Shown one piece after another: positions 28,501 through 64,000 of a stretch of DNA of 64,000 nt. Both the position numbers and the translations under genes were made by a program. Under the pieces are notes generated by a model that saw only the letters and a program-made list of their open reading frames with translations, had not been told where the DNA came from and searched no databases. The DNA comes from Gordius sp. MW1 (lineage: Eukaryota; Nematomorpha; Gordioida; Gordea; Gordiidae). The DNA is taken from contig OZ038526.1 in NCBI GenBank assembly GCA_964036665.1, forward strand, positions 4,836,001 through 4,900,000, read 5' to 3'. Numbering within the stretch: the first letter of the stretch is position 1; each line of letters begins with the position of its first letter.

Positions 28501-31500
28501 ATAAAACACAAATAAATTAAATTAATTTATAGGAGGCGCTATAAACAACTATTACGAATCAGATATTTTAACTATACTTTATTACTAAAGGGCCACATCA
28601 AGATATATCTGATAAATAAACAAAGATGGAATATAATTTTATGAAAAATTCTTAAATATTGACTTAATTAAAAACAAATTAAAGGAAATTGATATTACAT
28701 TATGACTTTTTATCTAAATTATACAGGGTTAGGGTAAACTTTGTCTTCGAACATTCGTTCAAGATATACCGTAATAAATAATTTTTATTATCTAATTCAT
28801 GTTCAATAAAAATTGTATAAATATACTTTATTATAATAAATAATAAATGTCTTCTCAAGTTAGATTTTATGTAGTTGCGTAGTAGCCAAATCCATTTCTT
28901 GTGCAGAAAGTGTGTAACTACGTCCCGTGATTGTGTACGGAGACATTGTCATTATAACATCCGATTTTTTAATGTTTATTTTATTTAATTTTGACGGGAA
29001 AAAAAAAGATTTTGCCGGACCATTAGGATGTAAAAGATGAGCGACAATATATTCGTTTATTAGATCCTTGTCTACAATTAAGGCTAACCACCATTTATTC
29101 TGGTATCTACATACCACGTAACCATTTAGATTTTCAGAATCAATTTCATTCGCTATTTGAATTTCTTCCTCAAAATATTCACTTGAATTAGAATACGTCT
29201 TTGTTTTAATTATCTTTCTGTCAATAGGTATTAAAGCATGTAGCTTTTGCATCCCAGAAATAGGTTTTGCTCGATTGAATCGAGAGGTAAGTTTCAATTC
29301 CTCTTGTTTAAACTCCTCATTCGTCATATAACCAAAACTTATATTAGCAAAACTACTTTTCGCCCATTCAAACAATTCGAAAGGCTGTGTTATTTGATTT
29401 TCGAATGGTCTTTGTACTCTCGCCTTATAAGCCAAACGTTTTAAAGTACCGGCAGCACCATCGCAAGGACTTTTGCCATGAGAAGTTGCAAAAAAATGCC
29501 ATTCTGCCTTGATCCCATAATCATCAATGTGATGACATAAATTAATTGTATTCTTTCTATTTTTATATTGAGCGGCCGATCCATCTGAAAAATAGTAAAA
29601 AAATTTTGGTTGAAAATCGAGCTCTTGCAATAAAAAATTTATAAAACGCTTTTGAAATGCGCTATAGCTGGCAGTATTATGCTGCAGACATTCGGATATC
29701 ATAATGAATGTTGCACATTTCAATTCATCGCCCTTTTTATAGTAAGCAACAAAGGGATGTATTGTGGCCTGGACATTGGTCCAATGATAGGCCTGAACCG
29801 AGTCTTGCACCACAAAACTATAGTTTTCCGCAAAATCATTCAAAATTATTACTTCAGAGCAATTTAAGTTAAGTTTCAAATTTTTTAAAAACATTGCTTG
29901 TTGTTCGGCTATGAAGGAATGATATAATAAATGACCAATTTTCTCGCAAAAATCCTCTAGAAAATCTTAACTATGTTTATTTTAATTTTCTAGGTTGTCC
30001 TATCTACACTTAGCCATTGTTTATATTTGATTATTCTATATCTGAAGATTTAAATATTTCTGATATTCGTTGTTTAATATGAATGACACCTGGACAATGT
30101 AAACACTTTCCTAAATAACAAAGTGGTAGAGGCGGATTACAAATAATTTTTGCTAATATATCCTTATATGTTTTGAGAGGGTACATGTCAGTGCTAGTTA
30201 ATTTATTAAAATTTGCTCCGATCATCATTAATTTGACATTCTGATGGTATTGGCAAACACAGACATTGTGACTGCCACTTACTCCAGCTAAAATGCAATT
30301 TTTGGGCCTTAAATCTGCAAACTTTGAAAAGCCAAGTTGAACACTGGGATTCGCTTCTTTAAATTGTAAATAAAGATCTTTCAGATTTAATAAAACTAAT
30401 CGTTTTTGCACTTTAGTCTTCCTCTTATTAACAAGCATAGAAATAAAATCATTCTTTCCTGCCATTACTCGGGAGAAATCATCTGATAAATAAAATTGCT
30501 CGACTAATTCTATCTCAAAACTGCTTAATGTTTTACCTGGCTGCAGATTTGGGGTAGATAAAATTCCTTTTTCTAATTTTAATTTTTTAGCCCGTTTTGC
30601 CATATAGTATGAAACATTAAAAATTGTCTTGATTTTTTGTGACGTCCAACTATCGGGGAGTAGTGTTTGAATCCGATATTTATTACTTTTGTTTAATGTA
30701 TGAAAACTAGATTTCATACTATCTAGTAATTCAGAATCGACCGATAATTGATTGTTTTCCTCGACGATTTCCAAGGTTGTGGCAAGGCTTTTTTTAATTT
30801 TTTCTAATTTTCTTGATGGATATTTTTTTTCAACGAATCTCTTCATTTTAATCGGGGATTCGGCAATCATAGATAATGAGGTATTAAGGGCTTGAATAGA
30901 TGTTCCTGCTTTGTCTATAATTTCATTTATTGGGGGTGGGGAGAAAGAAGGATCAACAGACGGATTAATATTTGGAATATCCCGGCGTTGATAAATTAAT
31001 TTGCGACATGTGTCACATAATTTCGCATTGGGATCTAAAAAGGTCATCCATTTAGAAACAATTCTTATTCCTTTGATTTTACCTTTATGGGTCTTAAATG
31101 GATTACAACAATAAGTGGTTTTAGGCATAGAAATTAATTGACACGAAATTAAAGTATTTTAATAAAATTATAGCCAGTTGAAACAAATAAAATTAATATG
31201 ATATCGATTTTGTGTTTTAATTAATAGCGTTGTTGCACATATGGTTTTAATCATTTAATTGTAGAAAGCTAGGATGATCTGCCAGCTGCGATTTTATATC
31301 ATTTAAGGCAATAAAAAGCCAAGCAATTGTAATCTAACCCTGTAAAATTAGGTTAAAAAACAGAATGTAATATCAAATTCTCTTAAATTGTTGTTTTAAA
31401 TTCAGTCGATATTTAAAAATTTTCCATAAAATTATATTTTATCAGATATATCTTGATGTGGCCCTTTAGTAATAAAGTATAGTTAAAATATCTGATTCGT

Positions 31501-53027: not shown

Positions 53028-53353
53028 TGAGGGTGGGAATTTGTTAAAGGGCGAGCTGGTCATTTTGTGAAAACGTGAGACGATAGTCAGCAACCGACAA
53101 GTTGTGGACCAAGTAACAATAATACCCCAAAGTAAAAGAACATTACATCTGGAATATTACTAATAAAATTTAGAAAAAGGATGGTAAAAATTATTATAAA
53201 TAACTAAGTTTTAAGGGGGATGGTTGATTTTTAGGGGCAATTCTGAGTTTTCTCCTAAGCTGAGTTGTTAGAATTAAAGATGTGAACGAGAATTTAAGTG
53301 CATAGGGCGGCGGTAGGCATATGAGTGCATTACATTATTTAATAGCTATAATT
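53028..53353. repeat. 326-bp direct repeat, copy at the 3' side of the retroelement
   Basis: Begins TGAGGGTGGGAATTTG and ends AATAGCTATAATT. It matches 56288-56613 at a constant offset of 3,260 with about 4 mismatches by eye and no indel. Read on the element strand, it lies immediately after the poly-A end of the element. Confidence 0.9.
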
Positions 53354-56287
53354 TTTTTTTTTTTTAAATGTATATATTGTTTATTTGAACGTAAGAACTT
53401 TATAAAAACGAAGTGTCAAAATTCGAAAAATATAGCGGATGTAAAACAAAATAAAAATATTATGATTCAAAAATGTCGCATGTGTCATCTTGTAAAAGTG
53501 GCCAACTGTCGGCCAGGGATTTAAAATTGTACTTAGCTATAAAAATACCAATTTTTTGTTTAAGTAAAAAATTAGTGGAATATTTAGAGGGCGGGCAGCG
53601 ACGGCTGATTTCTTTAAAAAGCTTAATGGCGGCCGGACCAAAAGTCCCAGAACACGAGGCAACGATAGGGGTAAAGATATTAGATGGTAGGAGAGCCTGG
53701 TATTTAACCGTTTTGCGGTGTTCGGCGAGAGTCAAAGCGTTGTAGTTTTGGTTAGAGGGAGCGAAAATGTCTATGCAGGTGAAATCCCATTTAAGGGGTA
53801 GACCATTTTGCCAAGGGATAAGGGTAGAGCCGTCTGGTTGCATCCTTCCCTCCAACGAAGGGTCTGACGGCTCTAAAACGGAGGGAATGTTGGCTTTTTT
53901 AAAAGCGGCTTGGATAAGGCTATTCACCTTTTCGTGCCTTATGTATTTAAATTTATTGTAAAGGCAGTGTAGGGGATGTCTTGCATAAATGTCTATGCTC
54001 TGGGAGCAGTTGCGGCAGGAATATTCCTTTGAAAAGGGAATTCCTAGTCTGAGGGCGATGGCGTATGCTAGCTCTGGGTCCTCCAACATCAATCCAGAAA
54101 GTGAGCTAGGATAAGCTTCAAGCCACTCGTGACCCGATCCGTCAAAAACTAAAGATTTAAGGTTGAAGTGCTGGCGGGCGTCGCAACTCGATAAGAGGTA
54201 ATCAACGGAGCGCGATACGAGGCCAGCATCCCAATCCTTTTGTCTAGAGGTTATGGGGAAGGGGGTCCCTGGGTTGACGTTGGCTGACCAGACGTCTAGG
54301 GCTTCTACAAACGACGGATCCTCATTTGTTGTGATTAAACGGTCGATCAATCCTTGGGCAGATTTATAAGAAGAGATAAAAGGAGCTAACGAAATTGAGG
54401 TAGCTGGGCGTATGCCCAAGCCGCCAGCTTTAGTAGGTAAAGAGGCTTGGAGCCACGAGGAAGTGCTGAATTTGATATTAAGAATTGCTTCTAAAGTATT
54501 CTTCATGAAGCTATCGTAGCTTTTTAAAATCTCGGGCAATAAAAAGGCTGAAGAAGACCGGAAGCAGTGTTGAATTTTTGAGATGTTGAAATAGTTTTTA
54601 ATGATATAAAATGCGTGGTGTTTGGGGAGGGTATTAAGAATATCCATCTTCGATGTAAGAGTTGATAAGTGGCTATGTAAAAATTCTTTTAAGGCGATTT
54701 GCCCACCTATTGGAGAGCCTAGATGAGTAAAACTCATCAATTCAACTTTTAAAAAGGGCTTAAAAATGGGAAATTTGTTGGTATCCGGGCACTGATATAT
54801 CTCGCATTTAGAGATATTCAATCTCAAGTTTAGGGAGGTTTCATAATGTTGGATTAAAAGAATGGCCTTGGAAATTTCTTCAGGAGGGCCGCATAAAATA
54901 GCATCGTCCAGGTACCAGACGTTTAATGATAATGAGCATTGGTTTGAGAGGGATTCAGTTAAATTTTTGATCCCAAGACAAAACAGAGGTGGACCTAGGG
55001 GGTCTCCCTGTTGAATACCTTCTGCCGAATCAATTAAAAAGTCCCCAAACTTTAGTTTTGATATACAACCGTAACTTAAACTGATGTAATTTGAAAACTT
55101 TGGAAACTCATCAATGAAGGTATTTATTATCGTTTCTCGGCGAATATTATTAAAAGCATTGGCAAAGTCCAGTTTAACCATGCAGTGATTGGAGGGAATT
55201 TGTTTTAGACTTATCCGCGCAGCGTGACTGGCAGCCTCACAGCCGCCTTTAACCCCAAATCCTAATTGATGAGGAATTAACTTGTCGCTTAAACTGGATT
55301 TGATTGTCTTACAAATGAGTTTTGATATTATACGTCGAAAAACACTGCCAATAGCAATGGGTCTCACCGAATTATCAGGTTTTTTGATAGCGATGAGTTT
55401 AGCGCCGAACAATATAGGGATTATTTCGGTAGGAATATTACCGTTGACAATTAAATTGCATAGGGACGTTATAGAGTTGAGTAAAATTGCAGCGCTCACA
55501 TTTTGGAGGTTAATCAGGTCTTGTAAATAAACAGGGCGGAAACCATCAAGGCCTGCTGCAGAGTCGATGGGAAAGGAATTGATGGCTTCCCGAATGTCGG
55601 ATGAGTCTAGTTTTATGGAAGAGGCTGAGGTAGGGAGTCGATTTGCCGATGAGGATGGGGGATGTTTAGATTTGAGTTGTTGGTATGAATCAAGGGAGTA
55701 AGGAGCAATTGAGTCATTGTCATAAAATATTCTTAGAGCACTTTTGGGGTTAAAGTTATCAATTTTTTTAGAAATTAGTTTAGCAGTTTGCTTGGCAGTG
55801 GAGGAGTTTGGGGATTGTTTGTGCTGGGGGGTATTTTTAAAAATATTATCAATATTGAAATTTAAAAAGGAGTCTTTAATATGTTTGGACAGATTTTCAG
55901 CGTTGGGTCCTCTTACATATAAGGTGTGAAAGGTAAGCCTGAAAAGTTTATCCCAGTTAGTAAGATTTGAGGGAGAGTTTGTTATGGAAGTTATAAGGTT
56001 GATTAAAAACTGTTGAGAAGCCGGGTGAGCTCCCCTAGGGATTCTTGAAATAGTATTGGGGAAGGTTAAGGCTAAAAAAGAATCACTCCAAGAATAGTCC
56101 AAAGAAGTGGTAATAATGGGGCTGTCTAAGGATTGAGTATCTGAGTTGGACGAGCAAGGGGCATTATGAGGAGCATCCTCTATTATGGAGGCAAGAGGTG
56201 GAATAAGAGGGCTAGCAGGTGGGAATTTCCCAGAGGAGATACAACGAGCAGAAGGGTGGCCATGTATTATAAAACAGTTATTTTTTT
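53354..56287 (-). mobile_element. R2-like non-LTR retroelement, 5'-truncated, between 326-bp direct repeats
   Basis: On the minus strand the body carries one long ORF, about 94 nt of 3' UTR and a terminal run of about 14 A (T run at 53352-53365; its exact border with the repeat is ambiguous). The direct repeats abut both ends. The reading frame stays open right up to the 5' boundary and meets a stop about 20 nt into the adjoining repeat, with no ATG in the N-terminal 300 codons. This suggests a 5'-truncated insertion. The high identity of the flanking repeats and the intact frame point to a recent event. Confidence 0.8.
53460..56102 (-). CDS. Reverse transcriptase with zinc knuckle and putative restriction-like endonuclease
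   Basis: 880 uninterrupted codons are shown, and the frame stays open upstream to about 56305 without an ATG. Residues below count from the displayed start. RT motifs: AGLDGFRP at 183-190, VRPIAIGSVFRRI at 246-258, motif A LDFANAF with Asp312, motif B GIQQGDPLG at 362-370 and motif C YLDD at 397-400. The C-terminal part has a zinc knuckle C696-x2-C699-x9-H709-x3-C713, then QPDG (Asp757) and KWDFTC (Asp773), the pattern of the restriction-like endonuclease of R2-type elements. It would catalyse target-primed reverse transcription. Clade assignment within the early-branching non-LTR elements is uncertain. The displayed first codon is TTG, so the true start is unknown. Confidence 0.85.
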   Translation of the reverse strand: MDYSWSDSFLALTFPNTISRIPRGAHPASQQFLINLITSITNSPSNLTNWDKLFRLTFHTLYVRGPNAENLSKHIKDSFLNFNIDNIFKNTPQHKQSPNSSTAKQTAKLISKKIDNFNPKSALRIFYDNDSIAPYSLDSYQQLKSKHPPSSSANRLPTSASSIKLDSSDIREAINSFPIDSAAGLDGFRPVYLQDLINLQNVSAAILLNSITSLCNLIVNGNIPTEIIPILFGAKLIAIKKPDNSVRPIAIGSVFRRIISKLICKTIKSSLSDKLIPHQLGFGVKGGCEAASHAARISLKQIPSNHCMVKLDFANAFNNIRRETIINTFIDEFPKFSNYISLSYGCISKLKFGDFLIDSAEGIQQGDPLGPPLFCLGIKNLTESLSNQCSLSLNVWYLDDAILCGPPEEISKAILLIQHYETSLNLRLNISKCEIYQCPDTNKFPIFKPFLKVELMSFTHLGSPIGGQIALKEFLHSHLSTLTSKMDILNTLPKHHAFYIIKNYFNISKIQHCFRSSSAFLLPEILKSYDSFMKNTLEAILNIKFSTSSWLQASLPTKAGGLGIRPATSISLAPFISSYKSAQGLIDRLITTNEDPSFVEALDVWSANVNPGTPFPITSRQKDWDAGLVSRSVDYLLSSCDARQHFNLKSLVFDGSGHEWLEAYPSSLSGLMLEDPELAYAIALRLGIPFSKEYSCRNCSQSIDIYARHPLHCLYNKFKYIRHEKVNSLIQAAFKKANIPSVLEPSDPSLEGRMQPDGSTLIPWQNGLPLKWDFTCIDIFAPSNQNYNALTLAEHRKTVKYQALLPSNIFTPIVASCSGTFGPAAIKLFKEISRRCPPSKYSTNFLLKQKIGIFIAKYNFKSLADSWPLLQDDTCDIFES

Positions 56288-56613
56288 TGAGGGTGGGAAT
56301 TTGTTAAAGGGCGAGCTGGTCATTTTGTGAAAACGTGAGACGATAGTCAGCAACCGACAAGTTGTGGACCAAGTAACAATAATACCCCAAAGTAAAAGAA
56401 CATTACATCTGGAATATTACTAATAAAATTTAAAAAAACGATGGTAAAAATTATTATAAATAACTAAGTTTTAAGGGGGATGGTTGATTTTTAGGGGCAA
56501 TTCTGAGTTTTTTCCTAAGCTGAGTTGTTAGAATTAATGATGTGAACGAGAATTTAAGTGCATAGGGCGGCGGTAGGCATATGAGTGCATTACATTATTT
56601 AATAGCTATAATT
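56288..56613. repeat. 326-bp direct repeat, copy at the 5' side of the retroelement
   Basis: Near-identical to 53028-53353. Beyond it the flanks diverge (GTTTTGCC here, the poly-T run there), so the repeat edges coincide with the element edges. Confidence 0.9.
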
Positions 56614-63058: not shown

Positions 63059-64000
63059 TTATAATTCATGATAAAGCGCCCAACATTTTAAATGCAATCC
63101 GGCGTTACAATATGAATATTTTAGGCGAGTGGCCTTCTTAAAAACTTTACAACGCCTCTGAAAACAGGGTTTTTTTTGATGCTTTGTTATGTTAGATTTA
63201 TATTTCGTTAAACTCGAATACACGTTTCTTTTAGGTTGAATACCATATTTCCTGAAATATGACATCACAATCGATCTTCGGAAGTTGCATAATGACTGAT
63301 AATTATTGTTTGAGTTGTAAATTTGCCATGCATTTTGGCAGGCCGCATCTATTCCAAATGCTAACAAAGGAAAATACCATTTTTTACCTCTGTAAGAAAT
63401 TCTTGTAGATTGTACGTTCTGATCAAATCGATCAACCCCACCCATATATTTATTGTACATTTGTACCATAAATGGGCAATCGACTTGAATTTTTGATTTT
63501 ACCTTATTTATTGAACCTATTCTGGATACTTTACTTATTGGATTGCTACCATGACAATATGATAGCATGTTGACAATGCAATTGTCATTCCATTGAATCG
63601 CAACTATATTTGAAGTTACTTTTTTAGCGAAATAGCCTCGGCCTTTTTTAAAGCACTTTCGGATCTGCCAGAGGACATTTAATTCGATTGACCCTGTTGG
63701 TTCCCGTAGCGCCTATGTTTTTTTTGAAAGAGCATTTAATAATTCTGTGCTTGTGAAGTTAAATATTATAAGGAGAATATTTATTTGGTAATTCATCCTG
63801 AATATTCATTATGACAGCTCCCCCTAAACCAAAAGTTTTTTGCTGTGAAATTAATAAGGTGCCCGACCTTGTTGCGGCCGTCCAGAGTTTATACCCAAAG
63901 CGCATTGGCTTTCCTTTTATAAATTGTTTCGTAGTATGGCGCCCATAGTAGGGAACGATGGTTTCATCCATTACAATATTTGAAGTTTTTACATATTTAA
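63059..64000 (-). pseudogene. piggyBac-type transposase, C-terminal part, frameshifted, runs off the window
   Basis: The upstream open part (from 63971 down to 63759) holds MDETIVPYYGRHTTKQFIKG, the DDE_Tnp_1_7 segment with the first catalytic Asp. The downstream part (63568-63059) holds YNKYMGGVDRFDQN, the segment with the third catalytic Asp, and a Cys-rich C-terminal tail ending LHLKCWALYH. Between them, similarity continues through two frameshifts near 63763 and 63655 (FTSTELLNALSKKNIGATGT, then GYFAKKVTSNIVAIQWND). The second catalytic Asp, normally in a DNFFTS-like motif, is not visible. It resembles PGBD-type elements. The 5' part lies beyond 64000. Confidence 0.82.

Follow-up and report, generated by a model that had tools for sequence, protein, structure and literature searches.

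R9 of bdelloid rotifers is a LINE of the restriction-like endonuclease (RLE) type that targets rDNA. According to PMC6895275, the two strand cuts can be staggered by 2 bp, as in R2Bm, or by 126 bp, as in R9; second-strand cutting during LINE insertion is described there as poorly understood. R2 of Drosophila is specific for 28S DNA, with a top-strand cut that falls mostly opposite the bottom-strand cut, and its 5'-truncated copies are reported to join the target at their 5' end through 1-5 bp of microhomology, with extra bases or deletions in some cases (PMC2718515). For human L1, duplications above 100 bp are reported in up to 10% of insertion events in HeLa cells, and a median of 1495 bp is given for NER-deficient cells, in which the second nick was suggested to be more random (PMC5223499). 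BLAG elements measure 3215-3669 bp, with an ORF of 2721-3219 bp and a 3' UTR of 132-241 bp, and occur in 3-6 copies per family; the main text of the BLAG paper gives no duplication lengths for comparison.

An element between two 326-bp direct repeats

The window, i.e. the whole stretch of 64,000 nucleotides analysed here (C8:4836001-4900000 of the Gordius sp. MW1 assembly), holds a poly(A)-tailed element on the minus strand, bordered on both sides by the same target sequence. The features of the insertion are as follows.

53028..53353, minus strand: 3'-side (downstream) copy of the 326-bp target duplication (pairwise match; genome search)
53352..53365, minus strand: poly(A) tail of 12-14 A when read along the element, of which the outer 2 may be target (sequence)
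53354..56287, minus strand: 5'-truncated, poly(A)-tailed, probable RLE-type LINE of 2934 bp, the longest relatives being ~3.45 kb
56288..56292, minus strand: CCTCA, a 5-bp microhomology shared by target and element where the truncated 5' end is joined (junction comparison)
56288..56613, minus strand: 5'-side (upstream) copy of the 326-bp target duplication (pairwise match; genome search)

Alignment of the two arms (53028-53353 and 56288-56613) gave 98.8% identity over 326 bp with 4 mismatches and 0 indels, in agreement with the count made by eye in the earlier note, and both arms lie flush with the element edges at 53354 and 56287. The match could not be extended beyond 326 bp at either end, and the bases that may belong to either element or target number at most 5 (CCTCA) at the 5' junction and 2 on the poly(A) side. 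The arm divergence of 1.2% (95% CI 0.5-3.1%) agrees with that between copies of the element. When the whole assembly (211.8 Mb, 12 contigs) was searched with the 326-bp sequence, 2 candidates were obtained, both being the window arms; the search method, applied also to the element pieces, can overlook sequence that is diverged or very common. Since the repeat was found at this locus only and the element is multicopy (see below), the repeat is best read as duplicated target DNA and not as a terminal repeat.

Elsewhere in the window, a 217-codon frame (63059-63712, minus strand) matches DDE_Tnp_1_7 (PF13843, E 1.4e-13) and is a transposase remnant, presumably of the piggyBac type. Two consecutive long frames on the minus strand (28860-29966, 368 codons; 30031-31158, 375 codons) had no Pfam match at 0.001. 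The window gave no Rfam match at gathering score and no rRNA match.

Open frame and predicted protein

The coding features of the element, all on the minus strand, are listed below.

53460..56303, minus strand: open frame from stop to stop, 947 codons, of which the first 4 are target DNA (ORF reading)
54792..55388, minus strand: reverse transcriptase with DFANAFNN, GIQQGDPLGP and YLDD (54903-54914) (Pfam PF00078 RVT_1, E 4.6e-20, residues 306-504)
53964..54017, minus strand: CCHC zinc-knuckle between reverse transcriptase and endonuclease, CX2CX9HX3C (motif)
53700..53942, minus strand: putative restriction-like endonuclease region with RH (IRHEK, 53928-53942), PD-x15-D (53784-53837) and KX2KY (KTVKY, 53700-53714) (motif only)

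The frame begins at 56303, 16 nt inside the 5' repeat and close to the ~20 nt proposed earlier, and its stop lies at 53460. The RVT_1 match bears out the reverse transcriptase that had been read from the letters, and the domain is of the LINE type. Of 8 PDB sequence matches at E <=0.1, three bear the name R2 (4e-5 to 5.5e-5) and two are listed as reverse transcriptase-like protein (E 0.0004 and 0.003); three retron/group II-type reverse transcriptases outscored the R2 proteins in this search.

Towards the C-terminus lie CRNCSQSIDIYARHPLHC, the residue pair RH, PD-x15-D and KTVKY. A PD-D spacing of this sort is a known RLE motif. The marks of RLE LINEs given in PMC5678591 are CX2-3CX7-8HX4C, RH and KX2KY, compared to which the knuckle in the window, CX2CX9HX3C, has its H one residue off within the same span. 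Because the C-terminal 330 residues found no sequence match in PDB, the endonuclease call is based on these motifs, and the restriction-like endonuclease suggested previously is retained as putative. Six longer copies (see below) have a single ORF lacking an N-terminal APE domain: the ~450-480 nt ahead of their frame start (MVSTKSFCCTC...) are interrupted by stops in all frames, which leaves no room for such a domain. Judged from these motifs, the element is probably an RLE-type LINE in the wide sense (R2, R4, HERO, NeSL and CRE group). The term 'R2-like' in the earlier note is appropriate in that wide sense, and fails in the narrow one, as the copies are dispersed and not rDNA-specific.

Other copies and the missing 5' end

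The element is multicopy in the genome. We took the best-scoring 40 of 930 first-look candidates from a search with its 3' end and the best 40 of 79 from a search with its 5' end, and the median identity to the window copy was 99.0% over 36 alignments longer than 1 kb, some of which come from one and the same copy. In 31/31 alignments (29 loci, selected by a search with the element's 5' portion), shared sequence continues beyond the 5' edge of the window copy, mostly as ...ACTTATTAG preceding CCTCAAAAAAAA. The 5' ends of other copies are ragged, the longest of them clustering ~500-525 bp further 5', and 12/47 surveyed copies reach this cluster. In the six longer copies the frame starts with MVSTKSFCCTCKKLISLKK or nearly so, with single differences between copies, from which a frame of about 959 codons is inferred. 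Relative to these copies, that of the window lacks ~0.5 kb at its 5' end, and with it the start and some 16 codons. CCTCA at its 5' junction also occurs in other element copies, and is the same kind of microhomology as that reported for truncated R2 (PMC2718515).

No 5' HDV-like ribozyme was found among 5 Rfam matches (E up to 5) at four loci with longer copies, all of them below gathering score, and 27 pattern matches to possible relatives in IMG/VR yielded 0 confirmed cases. Two copies, L024 and L040 (C8:24894124-24895785), stand head to head with ~0.9 kb between their 5' search matches. Three others, L014, L028 and L029 (C2, C11 and C6), represent one insertion in three copies, their 5' flanks being 95-100% identical over 150 bp; they sit on different contigs, one of 76 kb, as a duplicated segment or a repeated unit.

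Junction survey

Both junctions were read in 51 copies, of which 47 were counted after four rows had been dropped: L084 (5' flank beyond the stretch), L024/L094 (5' flank is an inverted element copy), and L028/L007 and L029/L044, which repeat the insertion already represented by L014/L042; a shared 5' flank was seen in no further pair. L031 and L032 (3' end beyond the stretch) and one-sided copies such as L015, L017 and L040 were not entered. Each search contributed its 40 highest-scoring candidates, out of as many as 930 at first look, so that the sample leans to young copies, and some 3' flanks of only a few hundred bases lower the duplication length detectable there. A flush repeat was scored when a match of at least 30 bp at E <=1e-6 ended at the 5' junction and started at the 3' junction.

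Such a match was present in 8/47 copies. Five are clear long duplications, namely those of the window copy (326 bp), L085 (~78 bp), L099 (66 bp), L072 (57 bp, exact) and L037 (42-48 bp); two lie in tandem arrays (L019, period 345 bp; L038, ~107 bp) and one, an 81% match at L034, is ambiguous. The remaining 39/47 have no long flush repeat, L022 among them with a 9-bp duplication. The window copy is the only one of the 47 with a clear duplication above 100 bp, which leaves the 326-bp event as a single, unreplicated case. A mismatched-pair control, setting one copy's 5' flank against another's 3' flank in 400 pairs drawn from all ordered pairs of the 47, gave a flush match in 1/400, and the sole scoring pair reflects a dispersed repeat common to L034 and L085; by this same fixed criterion, the flush match at the window exceeds chance. 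Long duplications were seen in 5/35 truncated versus 0/12 longest copies (Fisher p 0.31), i.e. with no significant link to truncation. Two further candidates were rejected: the 33-bp match at L065, considered as a partial long duplication, is by eye a pre-existing tandem repeat, and the 74.5% match at L073 ends at the 5' junction, begins 83 bases into the 3' flank and is too diverged for a young copy.

The earlier note had proposed comparing the repeats that flank other copies, and four of these differ from that of the window, each being locus-specific. Its favoured reading, a very long target duplication with 5' truncation, is upheld by these four copies, by the restriction of the 326 bp to this locus and by the 31 alignments, all of which extend beyond the point where the window copy ends.

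Uninterrupted paralogous sites and target choice

Some copies lie in repeats whose uninterrupted relatives occur at other loci that were read, permitting an empty-site comparison. L085, set against its uninterrupted relative in L034, has a net duplication of 76 bp, which confirms the long duplication of ~78 bp obtained by flush match. Short duplications were recovered for L020 (6 bp, three uninterrupted relatives), L019 within its array (5 bp) and L022 (~7 bp net). Against its paralogue, L087 has no duplication, and 7 target bases plus 22 bases of flank are left unexplained; the matches between L027 and its paralogue are too short and patchy to be informative. Taken together, these comparisons indicate that the duplications are real and their length variable. 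The 5' junction of L020/L063 contains 32 extra bases between target and element, as judged from the three empty relatives, which may be filler or a 5'-extended transcript.

Target preference was assessed in 41 copies, leaving out L084, L028, L029 and L024 as well as L012 and L039, whose 3' ends are unclear. The flank following the A run begins with TTA in 15/41 copies versus 6.8% of 1798 post-AAA places in the flanks (p 4e-8), and its second base is A or T in 41/41. The window site, TTATAGC, fits the TTA preference. Integration is dispersed with an A/T preference, unlike that of R2 or R9. In the window copy, L013 and L036 alike, TTATAGC follows directly on the poly(A), a likeness that exceeds the general TTA preference.

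Origin of the flanking repeat

We consider it very probable that a non-site-specific RLE-type LINE was inserted here by target-primed reverse transcription (TPRT) with microhomology joining, duplicating 326 bp of unique target DNA. The bottom strand would have been nicked at an A/T-rich site, with TTATAGC following the poly(A), a TTA-type site as preferred by the family. Target-primed reverse transcription would then have started, and cDNA synthesis would have halted before the 5' end of the RNA. The second strand would have been broken ~326 nt downstream of the first nick, by a late-acting RLE, a host nuclease or a chance nick, and the cDNA end may have been joined to the far end through the 5-bp microhomology. 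Fill-in would finally have duplicated the 326 bp of unique target DNA. Weighing against this reading are the origin of the evidence in one assembly, the single occurrence of a clear duplication above 100 bp among the 47 copies, the 39/47 copies without a long flush repeat and the L087 paralogue without duplication.

Three other origins were weighed. A 326-bp tandem duplication may have pre-existed, with the element landing exactly at the unit boundary; pre-existing tandem repeats did receive some copies (L019, 345 bp; L038, ~107 bp; L065, by eye), but here, apart from the microhomology, the repeats meet the element exactly at its two edges, the 326 bp were found nowhere else in the genome search, the window has no tandem array with a score of at least 150, four other copies have flush locus-specific repeats, and the paralogous empty site of L085 is single-copy, all of which makes this origin very improbable. 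Equally improbable is an assembly artefact in which two haplotypes were stitched so that the flank appears twice: the 1.2% arm divergence would also be plausible as heterozygosity, but the joint would have to coincide with the end of the poly(A), and four further loci have this geometry with repeats of different length. Terminal repeats intrinsic to the element, for which only the position of the 326-bp arms speaks, have a negligible likelihood: the genome search placed the sequence nowhere else, and the other copies that were examined lack it, having different repeats or none.

The earlier note had held that the same 326 bp at the ends of all copies would speak for an intrinsic repeat, and the genome search gave the two window arms only. 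Assignment to the LTR retrotransposons was likewise rejected: their terminal repeats are common to the copies, and this one was found at the window locus only.

Comparison with described elements

No new kind of element is needed, and what is unusual is the length of the duplication for an RLE LINE. To our knowledge, 326 bp is the longest duplication in such an element, the longest otherwise cited being the 126 bp of R9. The window family, probably an RLE-type LINE, shares a very long target duplication with R9 and differs in that R9, with rDNA as target, has one cited stagger of 126 bp, whereas the present copies are dispersed with duplications from none to 326 bp. Identity with R9 was rejected on these variable lengths and dispersed sites, a set 126-bp duplication at rDNA being absent. 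R2 proper was rejected likewise, as the copies occupy dispersed A/T-rich sites and not 28S rDNA, and the window has no Rfam rRNA match. R2 of Drosophila is similar in its truncated copies with 5'-junction microhomology and some extra bases or deletions, and unlike the window family in its 28S specificity and near-opposite strand cuts.

The present family (~3.45 kb, ORF ~2.9 kb, 3' UTR ~94 nt plus tail) may be likened to BLAG, by description only, in its single ORF, similar size, N-terminal zinc-finger-like motif and C-terminal CCHC, and also in its dispersed sites and 5'-truncated copies; unlike the 3-6 copies of a BLAG family, it has tens to hundreds. Human L1 is comparable in its variable duplication length, poly(A) and A/T-rich nick sites (PMC5223499), and differs in having an APE endonuclease and two ORFs, as a member of a different LINE group (PMC5678591). 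The spread of duplications found here resembles that of L1, an element of another LINE group. The oddity of a long duplication was overstated in the earlier note, such duplications being documented for L1 (PMC5223499).

Implications for second-strand cutting

The duplications range over none, ~5-9, 42-79 and up to 326 bp, and these varied lengths among copies mark a family without a fixed second-strand stagger, in which the position of the second break is probably not set by the protein. It is possible, and we suggest it tentatively, that RLE LINEs freed from site specificity lose their fixed stagger, the second break becoming uncoupled from the first nick and arising through chance or host nicks, with a broad natural range (none to 326 bp) of which 326 bp is the longest in a known RLE LINE. 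A young, multicopy, non-site-specific RLE family of this kind offers natural data on whether the element endonuclease or the host sets the cut, and complements the set staggers of R2 and R9 as well as the variable one of L1. Its value lies in the natural range of duplication lengths, one extreme of which, at 326 bp, exceeds the 126 bp cited for R9.
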